Positions 6,561-64,000 of a stretch of DNA of 64,000 bases are shown piece by piece (positions within the stretch are counted from its first letter, which is position 1; every line of letters begins with the position of its first letter). The position numbers were made by a program, and so were the translations under genes. Source of the stretch: Pisolithus tinctorius. Taxonomy: Eukaryota; Basidiomycota; Agaricomycetes; Boletales; Pisolithaceae. The stretch covers positions 62,001-126,000 of the forward strand of contig JANFAH010000058.1 of NCBI GenBank assembly GCA_024663395.1, in the 5' to 3' direction. The notes beneath the pieces are model-generated. The model made no database searches and was not told where the DNA came from. It saw nothing but the letters and a program-made list of their open reading frames with translations.

Positions 6561-7356
6561 GTCAGCACCGTACTCCTGCTACCGGTCTCTCGTTACTGCA
6601 AAAGCGGTCCCAGTTCTGGTTCCGGTGGATAAGCCGTGGGGCACTGGTACGGCTGGACGAAATTCCACCAGAGTTATGGTGTTCCCGGCCAATGAAAGAG
6701 TGATAACTGGAAATCCACAGTTGTGGCGGAGAAGGAAGAACAAAAATCGCGATCGTCGTCGGATTGTGGGCATCGGGGTCCTTCATTTTTGGCCACCAAG
6801 TGTCCCACAAGATAAGAGATTTAGGGCTAATAAAGGACTTTGCTGGCCGTCCTGTGTGTCCAGAGAGCGACGCCAAAGCCAAATATACGGTACCCTCCGC
6901 CTCGTGCGGGCGGGCACAAAGACTGGTCAGGCAGACGATTGAGACTCTCACGTCAGAGCAAGGTGATTAACACGAAAGTGGCGGACCACAGTTACAGCCC
7001 GGGCCGGTACGGCACTCACACGCTCGGGGAGATAGCGGGGCACGCCGATCAGATCGTTATATAGACACGTTTACATAAGTACCTACCTCAAGGCACATAC
7101 TAAACTGAAGAAAAGATGCTATCATTTTGCCTGATAGATGGTGTTGTTTCTGAAGATCGTCCAAAGAAAGTCAGATTGTCCACGGTACTCATTACCTTGT
7201 GGGCTTATTTCATTTGCGTCGCAGGATTGGCTGTATATGCGAGAAGCATCATGGCATTCACGTGACAGAGCTTTTTCGACTTCCGGTGCGTGATGTACCA
7301 GTTGGCCATCGATTTTTCAAGCTTCGCTGTTCACGGTGTGTAGCGTAGGGTGATCG

Positions 7357-7825
7357 ATGGCTAGTGTATCTGCACTGCTTCCGGTCTATCGCCACCTCCG
7401 AGTATTGTCCAATTACTGCTCATTTTGCTTTCGGTTGTCAGTTTCTCATATTGGGTCCATCTCCCTGTTTCTTCAGGCGCTGTTGGTCATTGTGGCGCCG
7501 CTGTATTCGCTGTGGCCTTTGAATTGTCACCAATCACTGCCATTCTGTCTGTCGTGGTACGCGCGGCACCGCTCACTTCATACTCGCCCTTGTACAAAAC
7601 GACTGCGGCTCTTGATCTTCTCAATATGTTTTGTGCCACAGCATGCATAGCTGGTGCTGTTACGGGAATTTTTTTGGCCGCTACGTCACCGTCATCGTCG
7701 TTAGCATGTTTACCATTTCCATTTCGGGAAACCTGTTTCATCGCAAGACGATCCAGACTCAGTCTTGTCTTCCAGTTAATTATCCACTCTGCTGGCTGAA
7801 ACGACGAAACGTACGCATGCAATAA
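7357..7825 (+). pseudogene. Frameshifted copy of the 26536-27033 membrane protein
   Basis: Paralogue of the intact gene in copy B. Related peptides occur in different forward frames: FLQALLVIVAPLYSLWPL in one, then VVRAAPLTSYSPLYKTTAAL and MFCATACIAGAVTGIF in another, so at least one frameshift separates the halves. The C-terminal basic tail (KRRNVRMQ) is kept in yet another frame. The region between 6560 and 7357 is alignable to 25870-26530 but I see no coding content there. Confidence 0.65.
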
Positions 7826-8440: not shown

Positions 8441-8524
8441 CGTCGCCTCTGAATGCATCTGGGCAGCACCTACCAACTGACGAACTCACAATCCAGTCTA
8501 CTCAACGCTTTACTTTACCCTCCT

Positions 8525-9231
8525 ATGACTCTCACCTGTTATTACTTGGATGACTCCTCTGCTGACCCCCGCCTTCCCCATGACTCTGGGAGGCCCGTGG
8601 ACTACTCCCACGTCCTTGCCCTTGGGGTCGAGCACTGGAACGTTCCCGTACCAAGCGACGGTAAATATGTGGTAGTAGACCACATCATGGAACAGCGGGG
8701 CTACCGCTACCATGATTTCGTCACTCTAAACAAGGAGACGCTGGGAGAAGCTCTCGAGTCCGTGCTCGATGGGTTCTATGAAGAGTAAGCTTCAATCTTT
8801 GGGATAAATAATCATAGTCATTGATTCACGACTCGCAGACACATGCACGAGTTCGAAGAAGCTAGGTACATCATTGCCGGACACGGATACTGGGACATTC
8901 GTGGTAAATACTTAACCCACATCCGAAAGTTTCACAGCCTAAGTTTCTCCCCAGAACACCCCACCGAGACATGGATCCGCTTCAAGGTTGGCCCCGGTGA
9001 TCTTGTCATCCTTCCCCCTGGCATGTTCCACCGCTTCACGCTCGACGAGAAATCAGACCTATCTTCGATGAGAATGTTCCTGGTCAGTGACCCTTCCCAC
9101 TCTGAGGTAGTTTTATTTGCGCTAACTAGGTGCTGCAGGAAACGCCCTCTCGCCACGCCCTCCCCCGCGGTAAAGTTGCAGACGAGAACCCCTACAGGGT
9201 TGATTACCTCAGGACGATTGCCGTTCTCTAA
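8525..9231 (+). CDS. ADI1: Acireductone dioxygenase (methionine salvage)
   Basis: Metal-dependent dioxygenase that converts acireductone to the 2-oxo acid precursor of methionine, plus formate. Exons 8525-8784, 8839-8903, 8955-9082 and 9139-9231 with GT-AG introns. The N-terminus has RLPHDSGRPV. Exon 2 carries the cupin metal ligands in HMHEFEEARY (two His and a Glu) and exon 3 the fourth ligand in PPGMFHRFTLDEK. It ends ENPYRVDYLRTIAVL. Length is about 185 aa, normal for fungal ARD. The frame is intact, whereas the copy at 28024 is broken, so this is the only working ARD in the window. It lies in duplication copy A next to PIF1 debris. Confidence 0.9.
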
Positions 9232-9364
9232 CTTATACCAAATTCTCGTGGAATCGGGGAGGCTGAGCTACGTGGGTTTGTTATATACGGGTAGTTTAAT
9301 TTGCAGCAATTTGAAGCCAAACTCCTTTGCGCTCCGTTGATCGTGCCACAACGCCGGGTGATAT

Positions 9365-10184: not shown

Positions 10185-10473
10185 TGTGACTCCGATGCGA
10201 AGTACTTAGACTTGCAACGTAGGCACAACAGAACTTTCTTAAGCACGCTACAAGTTATCCAGACGTTGCGGTCTGTATTGGTGTAGGGAAAAGAAGTCCC
10301 CGTACTCTACGTCTTACAGGCCCTTTTATACTGTAGAGGATAGGCACGAACACGTCAACGTAGATGAACAGGATAAGTAAGAATAGCAAGGACAAATGAG
10401 AAACTTATTGAATCTGTCAAACAACAAACAACTCCTGAGAACGCCCACCAGTCGTCGGGCCGAAAACCTCACA
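10185..10473 (-). repeat. 3' LTR of the chromovirus
   Basis: 289 bp, bounded by TG and CA. Aligned by eye it matches the other LTR without gaps and with one difference: A at 10370 against G at 19531. The difference falls in a CpG (CG in the 5' LTR, CA here). A TATAAAAGGG box on the minus strand lies at 10330-10321. Confidence 0.95.
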
Positions 10474-19345: not shown

Positions 19346-19634
19346 TGTGACTCCGATGCGAAGTACTTAGACTTGCAACGTAGGCACAACAGAACTTTCT
19401 TAAGCACGCTACAAGTTATCCAGACGTTGCGGTCTGTATTGGTGTAGGGAAAAGAAGTCCCCGTACTCTACGTCTTACAGGCCCTTTTATACTGTAGAGG
19501 ATAGGCACGAACACGTCAACGTAGATGAACGGGATAAGTAAGAATAGCAAGGACAAATGAGAAACTTATTGAATCTGTCAAACAACAAACAACTCCTGAG
19601 AACGCCCACCAGTCGTCGGGCCGAAAACCTCACA
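19346..19634 (-). repeat. 5' LTR of the chromovirus
   Basis: 289 bp, TG...CA. It carries the promoter: element-sense TATAAAAGGG at 19491-19482, consistent with transcription starting about 25-30 nt downstream. Identical to the 3' LTR except G at 19531. The right target duplication is 19635-19639. Confidence 0.95.
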
Positions 19635-27039: not shown

Positions 27040-28020
27040 GGCAATTCTCAACTACCCAGCCCCGTATCGTTACCCGCGCCCCGTCTTCGCCTGTCCTTTG
27101 TTGTAGCCCTATTTTCTAAATTATTGCCTTGTCAGCGGCTCTTCGCCTAAGGAGTTCGTTCCACGTCCTGAACCATCCGGAATTGTACAAGGATCCCAGT
27201 GGCTGAAGTCATGTAACAGGCAGAAGGTGGTCCCCCGTGCTTTGCTCGTAAACTGATGGATATATACCATATTTACTTACAAGTTACCTTCGGTGTCCCC
27301 ATGAATTGTAACGTGTGGCTTACACTCTGCATGCGCTGTGTTTAGAACTGATACCAACAACCCTTGAAAAAGTATGAAGACAGCAAAAAGACGAGAGTAT
27401 CGTAGTAAGCGCTGAAACGGATGGTGAGCACTTGAGCTCTGCAGATCCGACTGATCGTAGTCGTTCTTCGCCAGTGGATTATGCAACTGTGGATCAGATG
27501 TTTGTTATACTGTCTGTCGCCGGGACATCTCCGTATGGGCCCTTGCAGTGTACTGTATGAGGACTCTTTCCGCTACCCCACACAACAGACCCAGCTGTCT
27601 GGAAATGCGAGCAGCGCTGAAGGACCGAATACCTTGTGGTGTCGTCGCAGGTTAAGTAAACCTTACGGTGACTCGCAAATCACTGGCTCAACTTCTGAGG
27701 TGCATTGTAACGGGATTCCAAAGTATCGGGCTGAATTGTGCAATATGTGTAAGCTCCCTTGAGTTCCATTTTTATTTCCGCATAATATTTGAGCCTTTCC
27801 TTCTTTTTCTTAGGTACATCGTACACAGCTGGCAAAGTGATTGCACTGCCATTATATCATGGACACGTTTGTGTCTTTGAGTGGGCCAAGTGTACCACCA
27901 CCACTGGCCCATCATGTCGAACGAGAATTACAATTAGGCAACCTCTCGGGTTGCAAGCATCTGGGTAGCACTGCCAACTGACGAACTCACAATTGACTTG
28001 ACGCTTCACCTTACTACCCT
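27040..28020. other. Intergenic, copy B; no supported gene
   Basis: Parts align with 7830-8520 of copy A. About 450 bp (27300-27760) has no clear match in A. A minus-strand open frame at 27277-27486 has one hydrophobic segment but no other support. Confidence 0.4.
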
Positions 28021-28023
28021 CAC

Positions 28024-28689
28024 ATGACTCCCGCCTGTTATTACTTGGATGACTTCCCTGGTGACCGCTGCCTTCCCGTGACTCTGTCAGGCCCGCGGAC
28101 TACTCCCACGTCCTTGCCCCAGGGGTCGAGCACTGGCACATCCCCCGCCCAGTGACGGTAAGCATGAGGAAGTAGACCACATCATGAAACAGCGGCCTAC
28201 CACTACCGTGATTTCGTCACTCTAAACAAGGAGGCGCTTGGAGAAGCGCTCGAACCCATGCTCGATGGCTTCTATGAAGAGTAGGTTTCAATCTTTGAGC
28301 CGGATCCACGGCTCGCAGATACATGCACGAGTTCGAAGAAGCCAGGTACATCCTCCTCACCGGACATGGGTACTGGGACATCCGAGGTAAGTTCCTGACC
28401 TATATCCGAAAATTTCACAGCGTAAGCTTCTTCTCAGAAGACCCACCGAGTCATGAATCCGCTTCAAGGTTGGCCCAGATGACCACGCCGTCCTCCCTCT
28501 GGCATGTTCCACCGCTTTACGCTGGACGAGAAATCCATGGTCAGTGACCCCTCCCACTCTACGATATTTTTATTCGCCCTAACTGGTTGCTGCAGGAAAC
28601 GCCCTCTCGCCACGCCCTCCCGCGGGGAGATCGCTGAAGTTAACCCCTATAGGACTGATTATCTCAGGAGGCCATCTGCGGTTCGCTAA
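28024..28689 (+). pseudogene. Broken acireductone dioxygenase (copy B)
   Basis: Paralogue of the intact ARD at 8525. It opens in frame as MTPACYYLDDFPGDRCLPVT, then shifts frame at the RLPHDSGRP motif. Exon 2 keeps MHEFEEARYI and GYWDIRG. Exon 3 is shifted and lacks the segment encoding SDLSSMRMFL. Exon 4 loses the ADENPYRVDYLRT context. The TATA box region of copy A is deleted upstream. Clearly non-functional. Confidence 0.85.
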
Positions 28690-29008
28690 ATTGTACTTCC
28701 CCATTGAGTATTCGTAGGTCGAGAACCAAGGAGGCCGAGGCAGATTCGGAATGTGGGATGTAAGAATGTTTTATAGTTTGAATTGTAGTAATTTGAAGCT
28801 GAACTGCTTTCCTTTTCGTCGATCGCTGTGCGAAGTCGGGTGATCTCAGACACACAGCGTTACAGTAACACATGTCATCATTCGGGGAATGTGGATCTCA
28901 AGGCAGTCCGGCACTCCGTGGGGTCGATACATATAGAATAATCATAATTAATGCCTTTAGCACGAAGCCATAGAAGTAATTTAAATTGCACCGTCGCCCG
29001 CTCGTTGA

Positions 29009-58869: not shown

Positions 58870-59418
58870 TACAATTCCAATCCTTGTCGGCATGTTTCTC
58901 GCCTCAAAGCTCAATTGTAAAGTAATACTCACACGCGTCTAAAAATGCGATCGTCTTGTACCGTAGTCTGAATGGTCTTGTACGATAGGTGGCAAAAACC
59001 AGGTTTACAAAGCCCGACTAGCTTTTTGTGTTTTTACGTACGTGAAAACGTGGCACTTACCAAACCATTTGATAAGAACGCAAATTTGTGAAGCTTCTAC
59101 GTCACTCGATGACTGAGGATCAGACCCTGAACGTTGACAACGCTGAACTTTGAAGCGTTTTCCGACACTCGGACTCACTCGGACTGCATCAACCATGTGT
59201 ACCGCATGTTGAAACATCCCTAACTTTAGTAAGGTAAGGAAATTTCTATTCAATTACAGTGTATTACAATTCATGCCCAGCATTGCAGGGGCGCGTGGGA
59301 CATTGGGGGCTGGACCCTAGCATCACGATGTAGTGCGATACAGCCCATCCTGCCGTGACAGAGTAAAATGCCCACATGCATGCTTCAGCGTTTCTGAGAC
59401 TGATTTCTCTCTGCCGCT
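58870..59418. other. Intergenic; no supported gene
   Basis: A minus-strand frame at 59005-59253 lacks motifs. The interval should hold the promoter of the DUF6533 gene. Confidence 0.4.
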
Positions 59419-60712
59419 ATGATGGGCACCCTCATTGGCTCTACTGCTGCGGCCCTTCGAAGTATCTATTACCACAGCGGTACGACCTCTTCCTCACTTC
59501 GATTGCAATCCTCTTGATGAGTTCATCATCAGCTGTAGCACTCGCGCTTTCATCGTGGGATTGTATAATGACGTTCGGGGATGAAGTCCGTTGTATTTGG
59601 CCGTCAGTCTTTGATACTCCCTGCATTCGCAGAACGCTCATTACCCAACCCTCACAGGATGAAAGGAAGTTACCCTTTCAAATGGTTGTATATATTCCAT
59701 CGCTATTTCCTATTGGCTATTCAGATGTACGTCTGGTGATTATGTATGACCTAGAGTGCTCTGCCGAATCACAATATCAACGGTGTAACAGAATGTGCCA
59801 GATCGCTCTCGCCTTTTTACCGGCCATGTCTTCGCCGACTTCTTCCATTTGGCTTGGTCTACTAGTGCTTATGACAGTTTTGGTAGAATGCACTAATTTC
59901 ACACTGGAATTTATACTGGCGTTCAGAGGTAGGTCTTAATTTTACGGTCCTGAAGTACTTTAACTCGTTTTTCGCCCAATAATCTAGTTTTTGTGCTGTT
60001 TGGTCGCCATCCATGGGTGTCGCGCCTCCTTGGAGGTCTTATCCTGGCCGAACTTGTCTGTTGCATGCCTACTGCATATTCAAGTTTCAAGAGTTACAGC
60101 TCTGGCATTCTGTTCGAGTTATCGCCCAATGCGAAGATACAGATGTGGGGTCATTGGTTTCGAACGCTCACAGCTGCTGACAAAGAAATATAGGTCAATT
60201 ACAATGGTCGTGCATAGCACTCTCATCTCCTTGACAGTGGCTAAGCATTTCTCTATCGTTGGAGCAAGTGGTGCTAGAAAGAACATCATATCACAGTTGA
60301 CGCTCGGTGGAACTGTCACCTATCTCATGATGGCAGGTAAGGATTGCCTTTAGCAACTCCGTGTGTGGGCAATCCATTTTGTTGTGATTAGGTCTACTTG
60401 GTCTTGGTTTCACTGTATCCAAGGTGCCGGATATGCAACCAATTATTCTGTTATTGTACGTGTCATATCTTATTCCAAAGCTTGATTCATAATGCTTCGC
60501 ATACAGCTGGGCTTTGACTGTACATTCGATCTGCGTAAGTTCCTTTTGCTATAAAATATTTGTGTAGATCGTGTTCACATATCGCGTAACAGGGAAGTCG
60601 ACTGATACTGAATATGGCGCGCATGCAGGACCATATGCAAGGTTTACGGGGGGTCGAGGACATTCTACTCACCACCCAGATTGATATTTCCCTTTCCGAG
60701 GACTTGGATTGA
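59419..60712 (+). CDS. DUF6533 domain seven-span-like membrane protein
   Basis: Basidiomycete-specific membrane family of unknown function. Start at 59419 (MMGTLIGSTAAALRSIYYHS); after a short intron the signature VALALSSWDCIMTFGDEVRC follows. Next exons: KGSYPFKWLYIFHRYFLLAI, CTNFTLEFILAFR plus VFVLFGRHPWVSRLLGGL, STLISLTVAKHFSI, and a last exon GSRLILNMARMQDHMQGL to DISLSEDLD (stop 60710-60712). Introns about 50-60 nt, GT-AG, frames intact. The TFGDEVR motif and the C-terminal SRLILNMR-like segment are diagnostic. Confidence 0.82.
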
Positions 60713-61339
60713 CATCGAGACACACAGATTGACTTTCGCTTAGAGCAAGCGACCCCAATCCACATCCTTTTTTCATGTCGTCCTATGTATGTATGTACTA
60801 ACTATAGTAGTTGGGTAGTGAAAGGTAGTCGATGTTTGCAGTATTGAGCCACCAAATGCCCTCAGGGTGCCCCTGGATGCTTAGTAAGTACCAACACCAG
60901 TAGAGATTAGACCTTACTCCCCTGGGGAAGGTGAGGATAATACAACTGACTGGCTTTGCCACAAGTGCCATGTGAGAATGGTGTTGTATGAGGAGGAAAA
61001 GCTCAGCTCAAGATGACTGGGTAGTGGCTTTCCCAACAGCTGGGGCAACCTTCAGTACATCAACAAATGCCTTTGTTCTGTACAGCTCTGTCCAGAGTGA
61101 TCTTGGCTGTGAGTTTCTGTCCAGCTTGCCACAGACTACAGTAATTGTAAGTACATGTCCAGAATACCAACTTCATGGCAAGCCCATGCACCTGGTTAGG
61201 CCATATGAAGCAGTCAGTGGAGGCTGACAATCAGCTGTCACTGACAGGCCAGTAGAGGTCAAGCCCATGTATGGCTTGTGCTCATGTGTTGGAGAACAAG
61301 AGTTTACAGCAGGTGCATTTTGATTATGTAATATACCTC

Positions 61340-61557
61340 TGTTAGGAAGAATAATTTTTCCTCTTTGCACCTCAGTCTTCAACCAACTCAAGACTGAGGT
61401 AAGGTCATTTGTTTACTATACCAAGGACTATAATACTAATGCTACTTAGTACATTCCTTTCTTCCTTAGGTTAGTTTAATTAAAGTCTTTGACCAACTTG
61501 AGACTGAGTACATTCCTTTCTTCCTTAGTGGGACACTCATTTGAACTTCATTTCCTC
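61340..61557 (+). repeat. Putative 5' LTR of the copia element
   Basis: Starts TGTTAGGAAG and ends near CCTCA, just before the primer site; the right end is approximate. Inside are a hairpin at 61369-61400 (ACCTCAGTCTT / AAGACTGAGGT arms) and a direct repeat of about 19 bp (acattcctttcttccttag) at about 61451 and 61510. No second LTR in the window to confirm it. Confidence 0.5.
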
Positions 61558-61562
61558 ATAAA

Positions 61563-61575
61563 AGGTTATGAGCCC
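61563..61575 (+). promoter_or_regulatory. Half-tRNA initiator-Met primer-binding site
   Basis: GGTTATGAGCCC is complementary to the anticodon stem-loop of initiator tRNA-Met (GGGCUCAUAACC), the primer type used by Drosophila copia and yeast Ty5 rather than the tRNA 3' end. It lies a few bases after the proposed LTR end and about 60 nt before the gag ATG. Confidence 0.7.
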
Positions 61576-61635
61576 TGTCTGAAAGCTTCTTCACAAACTG
61601 CTAGAGGAACTACAGACAGGAAAAAACCTTAGACC

Positions 61636-62433
61636 ATGTCAAACAACCCCCCTTCAATCTCTACTGCTGGGAAACTAGGAGCATCTTTGTCAATGGCAAC
61701 TTCAACTGTGAGAGTGACTCAAGGCTTGAGTCAACTCTATGATGTCAAGTCCCTTGACAATGAAGGATCAAATTTCCAGAACTGGAAGGGATGTGTCCAG
61801 ACCATGTTGGATCTCTGTGGACTTTGGCCAGTGGTTGACAGAAAAGAAAAGGCTCCTGATGCCACTGCAAACCCAGTGGAGCATGCTGAATGGGAGATGA
61901 GAAATAAGGAGGCATGCACACAGATTATCCTAACACTAAAGGATGAACCATTGAGTGGGGTATTATACATACCATCCACAGCAGAAATCTGGACCAAGCT
62001 CTGCAAGTGATATGAAGGAAAAGGAAAACAAACAATTGCCTACCTTATTGGTGAGTTGTTCTGTAGCACACTCACAGAGGAGTCCCCTATGGAAAGCCAA
62101 CTAAATGCAATGAAGTGAAAAAGCCAAATCCTAACTTCACTTGGCCAACCCCTAGATGACTCACTCATGGCCATTGCAATGGTCATCTCACTTCCCCAGT
62201 CCTATTCTACACTCTGCACCATCCTAATGTCCACTGAAAACAAGTTATCCACTGACTCCATAACTGCACAAGTCTTAATTGAGGAGCAATCACACAAGCT
62301 ATCTGAAGCACAGACTGCACTTGTAGCTAAAGCAACCCCTAAAGGAAAGGGAAGGGCATCAGACAACAAGGAAAAGAAGAAGAGGAAATGTCATTACTGC
62401 AAAATCCCTGGTCACCTCAAAAGGGACTGCTGA
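61636..62433 (+). pseudogene. Copia gag
   Basis: Starts MSNNPPSISTAGKLGASL. Contains NFQNWKGCVQTMLDLCGLW and WEMRNKEACTQIILTLKD (UBN2/DUF4219-type capsid), then a zinc knuckle CHYCKIPGHLKRDC. Three in-frame stops, all TGA, at 62008-62010, 62116-62118 and 62431-62433; the intervening sequence stays in one frame. The last falls right after the zinc knuckle, where related elements have a basic residue. Confidence 0.75.
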
Positions 62434-62843
62434 AAAAAGAAAGCTGATGAAAGTGCAAAGGCTGGGTTGTCAGGTGAAAAAGAAAAGGACAAAGGAAAGG
62501 AAGGACTGGAACTCACAGCCAAGGTCACACATATCCTAAGCTCTGAGGACCCCCTCCAATTGTTCATGGTGCAAACACAGCCACAAGCCAGCACACAGGA
62601 GTGGATTATAGATTCCAGTGCCCTGCAAATATGTCATGCCAGTGAAACTGGTTCACATCTTTTCATACAATAAACCCTCCACAGCTGGTCATCATTGGAG
62701 ATGGGAGCTCTATCCTAGCCTTGGGGAAGGGCTGCATAGAGGTGGAAATGCATCTCCCAAATGCACAAACAAAAAGAACCATCTTGTGGGGCATGTATTT
62801 TGTTCCAGAACTGGATACAAACTTAGTGTCAGTTCTGTACCTA
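62434..62843 (+). pseudogene. Copia protease region
   Basis: Continues gag in frame through KKKADESAKAGLSGEKEK to EWIIDSSALQ, the site where copia proteases have DSGAS (here Ser for Gly). A one-base shift near 62630 moves homology to NWFTSFHTINPPQLVIIGDG and ILWGMYFVPELDTNLVSVLY, the gag-pre-integrase lead-in. The MITE at 62844 interrupts it there. Confidence 0.65.
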
Positions 62844-63060
62844 CAGTGAGGGACAAAAGCATTGCAATGTTTGTGAGGTGTGACTTGCTGCCAATGTAGC
62901 TTGGGATATTCTGCACAGATAATCATGATACCTATACCATTAGAAAGGGGTGACTCTAGGCATTCCAGAGCACTAAGGTTCAGTCCAAACAAAGCAATAC
63001 ATGCTGAGATACACCCTATTCTTTCCAAAAAGTGCATTGCAATGCTTTTGTCCCTGACTG
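62844..63060. mobile_element. MITE with 26-bp terminal inverted repeats
   Basis: 217 bp. The left terminus 62844-62869 reads CAGTGAGGGACAAAAGCATT..., and the reverse complement of 63035-63060 reads the same except C for G at base 5: one mismatch in 26. No coding capacity. The TIR sequence has a Tc1/mariner look, and a TA dinucleotide precedes the left end; the right end is followed by GT rather than TA. Nested in the copia protease/pre-integrase region. Confidence 0.75.
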
Positions 63061-63258
63061 GTGAAATAGTGAAAAGTGACCGTCTGATGGGATTACTGGC
63101 ATGAAGGATGGGAAAATATGATGACATAATAGACCACATGATCTTCCAGATGATTTGTCAGTGTGTAAACAATGACAAACATTGAACTTGTACCATTAAC
63201 CCTCCCTCTTTTACCACAACTCATGAAACCACCTCTCTAGCTCACATGGTCATTTTCT

Positions 63259-63538
63259 CAAGGAATTCTTATCAAATACTGGTGGCCACCACAGTGCCAT
63301 CAGTATAACATGCTCTCAGAATCATCAGTGCCTTAAAAAACCTGCTGTCAGTCATTCCCTGGACTGTTTCCCCCCCATGCCTGATGTGTTCTGGGACTAA
63401 TCAGTACTTGGAAGGCTGAGAATGTTTTGGAGGTCAATCTGGTACTTCAGAACATGATGGACAAACTATCCCCCTATCAACCAATGCATTTCTGGCACAG
63501 GAACAGTGGTATGGAAGTTAGGGCAAGACAAAATCTTC
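63259..63538 (+). repeat. Inverted repeat, left arm (280 bp)
   Basis: Reverse complement of 64000-63721, nearly identical. Differences I can see include one base in the C run near 63377 and several substitutions near 63500-63535. It contains peptides such as EVNLVLQNMMDKLSPYQPMH that could be copia-derived. The arm may extend left of 63259 if the partner continues past the window. Confidence 0.85.
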
Positions 63539-63720
63539 TTTACCCCTGGGTGTCATCAGAAGGATATGCTACTGAACTGCCATGGAGCAGAATCCTGTGC
63601 TTCCATCTGGCCCTGAATATTGCCTTTGGTCACATATGACCAAATAATCCTTCCCCAGTCACCTACAGTTCAGATCAGAGCAAGATCTAGTGAACCCTCT
63701 TATGGTGCTCAGAGCACAAG

Positions 63721-64000
63721 GAGGTTTTGTCTCACCCCAACTTCCATACCACTGTTCTTGTGCCAGAAATGCATTGGTTGATAGGGGGATAGTTTGTCCA
63801 TCATGTTCTGAAGTACCAGATTGACCTCCAAAACATTCTCAGCCTTCCAAGTACTGATTAGTCCCAGAACACATCAGGCATGGAGGGGGAAACAGTCCAG
63901 GGAATGACTGACAGCAGGTTTTTTAAGGCACTGATGATTCTGAGAGCATGTTATACTGATGGCACTGTGGTGGCCACCAGTATTTGATAAGAATTCCTTG
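63721..64000 (-). repeat. Inverted repeat, right arm (280 bp, runs to window edge)
   Basis: Pairs with 63259-63538 across a 182-bp spacer. The spacer has a short palindrome, TTTGGTCA...TGACCAAA, near 63624-63643. The arm reaches the last base of the window, so its true length is unknown. Confidence 0.85.

Follow-up and report, generated by a model that had tools for sequence, protein, structure and literature searches.

Near-complete loss of CpG from a stack of nested transposons in Pisolithus tinctorius, probably methylation-linked decay run to saturation

The closest described relatives of the CpG-erased block analyzed here, which lies at the end of a 64,000-nucleotide window of the Pisolithus tinctorius genome (C58:62001–126000 of a 92.5-Mb assembly), are CpG-biased mutation systems in the transposons of other basidiomycetes. 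In Ganoderma sinense, C:G to T:A changes make up more than 87% of transposon point mutations with CpG preferred, 98.7% of methylated cytosines lie at CpG, transposons are more methylated than genes, and transposons affected by repeat-induced point mutation (RIP) are almost all methylated (PMC4457147). Tricholoma matsutake shows CpG-biased C-to-T change in repeats and has masc2 (DNMT1 class) genes and no rid or dim2, according to a report that leaves the cause open (PMC6980582). Amselem (2015) described CpG-only C-to-T change in transposons of basidiomycetes with a Masc2-like Dnmt1 and proposed methylation plus deamination (PMC4352252). Rhizoctonia solani AG8 (PMC4014442) and Heterobasidion parviporum (PMC5870257) have a CpG-to-TpG bias among single-nucleotide polymorphisms, for which RIP or deamination is debated. 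RIP in Neurospora crassa inactivates repeats by C-to-T change, prefers CpA and needs RID, a Dnmt1-family protein (PMC4352252, PMC12543289).

The Pisolithus case shares with G. sinense an Agaricomycete host and CpG-preferring C-to-T change in transposons; there, however, the process is called RIP and CpA is a second target, whereas no CpA excess was found in the one Pisolithus family tested, and in Pisolithus the loss is expressed as a rate ratio and leaves CpG at about 1–2% of expectation. T. matsutake is likewise a transposon-rich Agaricomycete with CpG-biased C-to-T change in repeats, but its report, in the part available, was not found to give a rate ratio, a strand test or a level of saturation. 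The basidiomycetes of Amselem (2015) were Microbotryum, with a strong effect, and two rusts, with a weak one, whereas Pisolithus is an Agaricomycete at saturation. In R. solani AG8 and H. parviporum the bias concerns polymorphisms, and CpG accounts for about 40% of C-to-T changes, whereas change in Pisolithus is nearly exclusive to CpG; genes and repeats are affected alike in R. solani AG8, but in Pisolithus the loss is concentrated in repeat-bearing zones. Unlike the CpA-preferring, RID-dependent process of N. crassa, that of Pisolithus has no CpA preference (in the palindromic family described below) and no sign of RID in a weak search. Titles and abstract openings announced neither a rate ratio nor an equilibrium for CpG in fungal transposons, in a search that leaves many journals outside it. 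A first-pass annotation of the window had set the loss beside the RIP-like CpG mutation of some Pucciniomycotina and found it noteworthy in an Agaricomycete; its CpG-directed C-to-T character holds, but CpG-biased decay had already been reported for several members of the class. The kind of process, fungal CpG decay of transposons that are probably methylated, is known; what this extreme and well-measured case usefully adds is the completeness of the loss and the rate ratio.

The features that define the block, from CpG counts, a dinucleotide count and a profile match, respectively, are:

60831–64000, no strand: CpG-erased block in the window, containing 1 CG and extending outside the window to coordinate ~73,450
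63081–63082, no strand: sole CG of the block
59367–59939, + strand: DUF6533 exon (E 1.3e-5) of the CpG-normal gene at the left edge of the block

The single CG in the 3170 bp of 60831–64000 (G+C content 0.443), which the first-pass annotation had read from the letters, compares with 155.6 expected from base composition, an observed/expected ratio (o/e) of 0.01 with a Poisson log10 P of about −65. GpC is near expectation in the same DNA (o/e 0.85), and TG and CA reach o/e 1.57 and 1.37, compared with 1.08 and 1.12 in positions 1–60830. The loss is thus CpG-specific, as had been claimed, although base composition is not wholly unaltered: G+C content lies somewhat below that of CpG-normal DNA, at 0.457 in sampled bins (see below) with CpG o/e below 0.1 versus 0.511 in bins at or above 0.7, a difference that C-to-T loss predicts. 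CpG is normal in the rest of the window, where every 1-kb bin of positions 1–60000 has an o/e of 0.65–1.18. The edge is as sharp as first noted: the final upstream CGs are at 60779 and 60830, and the drop at 60830 falls in the 3' region of the DUF6533 gene. Some genome regions are present in the assembly as both haplotypes (C8 and the gene flank share 98% identity; the DNMT1 locus is on C3 and C59 at 98.6%), and on the other haplotype the boundary CG at 60830 is TG. The window end is not the limit of the erasure, which had been described for 60831–64000; the whole zone, to ~73,450, holds 14 CG in 12,619 bp (o/e 0.021).

The two members of a long terminal repeat (LTR) pair should start out identical when the element inserts. 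Twenty pairs were chosen by spacing from the best ~40 matches of each family search, which does not make the set exhaustive, and all 20 entered the main count. CG was kept in both LTRs at 194 sites, lost in one at 101, and replaced by TG facing CA at 44; visible CpG changes total 145, and the 5,719 columns contain 14 of any other kind. Loss per CpG spans 0 to 2.7 across pairs. One family, with 18 LTRs and 20 CG sites, provides a complete series, from a pair with all 20 sites intact (L063/L064) through LTRs with a few lost to LTRs with most lost. An early stage is found in the window itself, in a young gypsy element (class as named in the first-pass annotation) delimited by LTR match:

10185–10473, + strand: left LTR of this element, which served for the early-stage comparison
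19346–19634, + strand: right LTR of the same element, with one CpG change relative to its partner and no other change

These LTRs have 15 CG in common and one CpG difference. The pair in the erased zone (L010:4616–5008 and 6993–7385, L010 being contig sequence beyond the window) has no shared CG, 4 one-sided sites and 13 TG/CA sites, and its 359 columns contain 2 other changes. The proposal that the block represents saturation of a CpG C-to-T process seen at its beginning in the gypsy element was borne out, and the comparison with other transposon families that had been recommended revealed graded CpG loss in LTR pairs and families.

The ratio R of CpG-dinucleotide loss to the per-site rate elsewhere was obtained from maximum-likelihood loss per CpG and the other changes. 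The 20 LTR pairs give R = 478 (285–875; bootstrap over pairs 221–1063), with strict spacing giving 664 (305–1810), omission of three gapped pairs 660 and omission of the two oldest pairs 359 (195–749); middle-aged pairs give 597 (256–1838) and old pairs 776 (303–2848). The palindromic family yields R of about 170, with sites of both arms counted though the arms are not independent. When CpG gain by other mutations (60% transitions assumed) is balanced against CpG loss, the block should contain 1.1 CG for R 478 or 3.0 for R 170, compared with the 1 observed; for the 12.6-kb zone, 4 (R 478) to 12 are predicted and 14 observed. Near-total erasure is thus about what decay at the measured ratio gives at saturation. 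Humans and vertebrates are described as having a five-fold CpG deficit; by the same balance, that deficit (o/e 0.2) corresponds to an R of about 16, at which ~32 CG would remain in the block, so that R here is about 10–30 times that giving the vertebrate deficit. A descriptive bias is in this way turned into a measured one, in which the LTR-pair ratio alone nearly predicts the residual CG of saturated DNA, and CpG content becomes a finely graduated clock for transposons still too young to have gathered enough other changes. Candidate causes of the high ratio are active mutation, weak T:G repair and a very low background mutation rate.

Copies of a palindromic element that occupies the right part of the block provide a second view of the decay. 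The element was delimited by copy comparison:

62842–64000, no strand: palindromic non-autonomous element of 1573 bp, ending at L010:414, termini TACAGTGAGGGAC, inserted in a copia element

Most copies have a TA target site at their ends, and the element is presumably Tc1/mariner-like. What the first-pass annotation took for a miniature inverted-repeat transposable element and an inverted repeat is this one ~1.57-kb palindrome nested in copia; that all of these parts are erased alike was correct. From 719 first-look candidates for the whole block, 40 places were scored; 28 of the 40, window copy included, were taken, and 27 were aligned after L004 (match <1300 bp) was dropped. Sixteen dinucleotide sites are mixed, with at least two copies each of TG and CA, whereas among seven classes of control double changes five have no such site and two (CC/TT and GG/AA) have one each. 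TG in some copies and CA in others is what separate decay of a CG in different copies would leave, and a CpG-poor donor does not account for such ancestral CGs, decaying one copy at a time. Fifteen of the 16 decaying sites lie in the outer ~230 bp at either end and one in the interior (Fisher p 8e-8, which is overstated, the boundary having been chosen afterwards and mirrored sites counted twice). This distribution implies that the interior already lacked CpG when the element multiplied; the pattern resembles what would result if DNA that had lost its CpG earlier were taken up by a small inverted-repeat element.

The two arms of a copy co-evolve. In 25 copies (the window copy, 62842–64000 plus L010:1–414; L002, L005–L008, L032–L038 and L040–L051; L003 and L039 were dropped as incomplete), the decayed CpG states of the arms agree in 170 of 177 comparisons at eight sites. 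Shuffled arm partners agree at a mean of 67.5% and a maximum of 79.8%. The omitted ninth site is a fixed difference between arms, with which agreement is 170/199. Arm identity is 97.9% within copies versus 95.5% between copies for the same arm. The agreement suggests arm-to-arm gene conversion, or a palindrome re-formed at each multiplication.

The changes themselves are restricted to CpG and produce TpG or CpA. In the palindromic family, the only one tested for CpA targeting, none was seen: C-to-T rates per site and copy are 0.0069 at CpA, 0.0100 at CpC and 0.0066 at CpT, and RIP-like CpA targeting is not indicated because the CpA rate is close to the other two. Loss is strand-symmetric and site-independent, with a skew in the gypsy family: TG:CA counts at lost sites are 69:82, 106:82 and 176:172 in three families and 32:85 in the gypsy family. 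Runs of same-strand change were absent from all four families, with same-strand neighbors at 68/135, 58/99, 95/180 and 136/321 and permutation fractions of 0.73, 0.44, 0.31 and 0.56. The preference for C after T that marks TpCpG-type RIP in Microbotryum and other Pucciniomycotina is absent in three of the four families; sites in T context number, as hit, hit on the other strand and kept, 23, 25 and 96 in the L023 family, 30, 32 and 16 in the C58 family and 86, 123 and 2 in the palindromic family.

CpG-poor DNA forms a compartment of the P. tinctorius genome, and the erased block is not unique, contrary to the exceptional status first accorded to it. Sixteen 10-kb stretches at round coordinates on contigs 1, 2, 5 and 7, a sample that is not random, were divided into 320 half-kb bins; four further stretches on C58, at or beside the window, were excluded. 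CpG o/e is below 0.1, equally poor, in 25 of the 320 bins (bootstrap 1.9–15%), from 5 of the 16 stretches, and below 0.7 in 48.8%. Bins with a detected repeat (n = 81) have a median o/e of 0.42 compared with 0.85 in the other 239, which speaks against generally low CpG in non-repeated DNA, the observation named at the outset as one that would undo the interpretation.

An exon-by-exon profile search of the genome yielded three PF00145 exon matches, one DNMT5-like and two alleles of a DNMT1-like gene. L029 aligns with the 7r76 protein (E 1.9e-73 and 2e-72), which is listed as DNA repair protein Rad8 and which we take to be Cryptococcus DNMT5; the 259 proteins homologous to this DNMT5-like piece were left out of the comparison. 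L030 matches DNMT1, and L031 is its other allele at 98.6% identity; named relatives among 67 matches of the DNMT1 exon are from Hygrophoropsis, Butyriboletus, Gloeopeniophorella, Lentinus, Lactarius and Suillus, presumably all Agaricomycetes. On these exon matches the genome is predicted to encode CG methyltransferases of the DNMT1 class and DNMT5. Basidiomycota are described as using DNMT1-RFD and DNMT5 for CpG methylation (PMC13297926). For RID/Masc1, no third methyltransferase locus appeared among the three matches, in a weak exon-wise search that can miss genes and did miss UNG.

Absence of a uracil/thymine glycosylase was considered as a cause and dropped. A search with PF03167 returned nothing up to E 10, but with TIGR00628 exons of UNG were recognized on C5/C84 and C2 (best E 5.7e-18, all short of the whole-protein cut-off), and HhH-GPD matched as well; the PF03167 null was therefore a false negative. 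Near-equal HhH-GPD exon matches on C34, C17, C51 and C194 suggest a duplicated or allelic DNA-glycosylase locus.

Symmetric CG methylation and deamination of transposons, run to saturation, is the probable explanation. The block would be the first part of a ~12.6-kb stack of old nested transposons, in which CG sites, after insertion, would be kept methylated on both strands by DNMT1-like and DNMT5-like CG-specific methyltransferases. Methylated C on one strand or the other would become T, one site and one copy at a time. In the end hardly any CG would survive, and those now present would mainly have arisen anew through other mutations. CpG specificity, loss after insertion, independence of copies, the series from intact to saturated, the lack of strand runs in four families and the enzyme genes can all be read from sequence comparison; we infer further that CG sites are methylated in P. 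tinctorius and that 5-methylcytosine deamination is the chemical step. A RIP-like premeiotic process acting on CpG in repeats, in which a dedicated enzyme would convert C to T at many sites per sexual cycle in recognized duplicates, would account for a rate ratio of hundreds, far above vertebrate-like values, and for the concentration of changes in repeat-bearing zones. We regard it as unlikely: loss is graded, not all-or-none, the three PF00145 exon matches include no third methyltransferase locus (weak search), and the RIP marks open to testing, a CpA excess (palindromic family) and strand runs (four families), were not found, although several such marks derive from ascomycetes and need not hold here. 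Some duplicated stretches also retain CGs (window 8455–9238 versus 27957–28696, 79% identical with 26 shared CG; L013 6928–7361 versus 7133–7569, 85% identical with 20 shared), but may be too short or diverged for RIP. Arrival of the elements in a CpG-poor state, from CpG-poor masters or a CpG-poor donor, fits the palindrome interior and is kept for that part only. As a general cause it is refuted, and we give it next to no weight, since LTR pairs lose CG after insertion and the LTR families include CG-bearing copies and intermediates, L063/L064 among them.

Several observations weigh against saturated methylation-linked decay or blur its measurement. Young pairs yield a lower R of 122 (52–375), other changes and CpG loss are not significantly correlated across pairs (Spearman 0.29, p 0.21, with non-CpG changes too scarce to tell a burst of loss from gradual loss), and one pair of atypical spacing raises the dispersion. 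The erased-zone pair, only 2.4 kb apart, may be two separate LTRs instead of the pair of one element, and the 14 CG of the zone exceed the 4 predicted at R 478. Gypsy-family hits are mostly CA, on C after T (T context: 53 hit, 4 on the other strand, 83 kept), a skew that probably reflects sites shared by descent. Among the 239 bins with no detected repeat, 36% are below 0.7 and 5% below 0.1 o/e; repeats were detected only within the 244 kb compared, so many were missed, and leakage into unique DNA is thus possible. Finally, so high an R, far above ~16, is not readily explained by deamination that proceeds unaided under ordinary repair. A mammal-like deamination rate could still produce such a ratio if other mutations were rare, with few cell divisions per time in a slow perennial mycelium; the data yield a ratio with no absolute clock, and the other changes in the LTR columns are indeed very few. 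We know of no direct point against this account, a sub-case of methylation and deamination that concerns the cause of the ratio, but consider it improbable. Somewhat more plausible, though still doubtful, is that CpG decay is actively driven by a CG-specific strand-symmetric mutator, either methyltransferase-coupled deamination or targeted suppression of T:G repair in heterochromatin, which would remove CpG at hundreds of times the rate of other mutation. A new transposon would then lose ~99% of its CGs by ~1–3% divergence elsewhere, a CpG counterpart of RIP without RID.

The remainder of the block consists of a flank, recognized by haplotype alignment, and copia gag and pol domains, recognized by profile match:

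60831–61290, no strand: low-copy flank beyond the DUF6533 gene, CpG-free on both haplotypes
61798–62307, + strand: Retrotran_gag_2 PF14223 (E 6.9e-31), gag domain of copia type, its frame interrupted by stops (read as X)
62383–62433, + strand: zinc knuckle of copia gag, zf-CCHC, 17.9 bits, under the Pfam cut-off of 20.8
62619–62834, + strand: Pol_BBD domain PF22936 of copia pol

The palindromic element interrupts the copia element at 62842, and the gag_pre-integrs and rve domains of the latter lie past the insert, in L010 outside the window. Repeats farther downstream include the LTR-like pair at L010:4616–5008 and 6993–7385, 393 bp each, from a family with 1467 first-look candidates, 40 of them scored. 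In a comparison across 244 kb, matches to sequence elsewhere cover 57.5% of the erased zone and 11.1% of positions 1–60830.

In the low-copy flank the aligned haplotype pieces are 96–97.5% identical with a small length difference, and a dispersed repeat of ~110 bp occupies 61181–61290. Spreading of CpG loss from the nearest transposon into this flank was considered and set aside: the flank is CpG-free on both haplotypes, and the adjoining C8 repeat stretch has an o/e of ~0.4–0.9, which suggests that the flank was erased by something else and is probably itself an old decayed repeat. That C8 stretch (L052:743–3000), the other haplotype of window position 61290 onwards, is a different, CpG-richer repeat-family sequence where C58 has the erased stack, and transposon content differs between the haplotypes directly beside the DUF6533 gene. 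Beyond the window, L010:1279–1494 and 1502–1716 (window coordinates 65279–65716) are adjacent copies of ~215 bp with a 7-bp gap, which differ at 20 TG/CA columns (10 sites) versus 7 other substitutions; this duplication appears to predate the CpG erasure, its copies having decayed separately.

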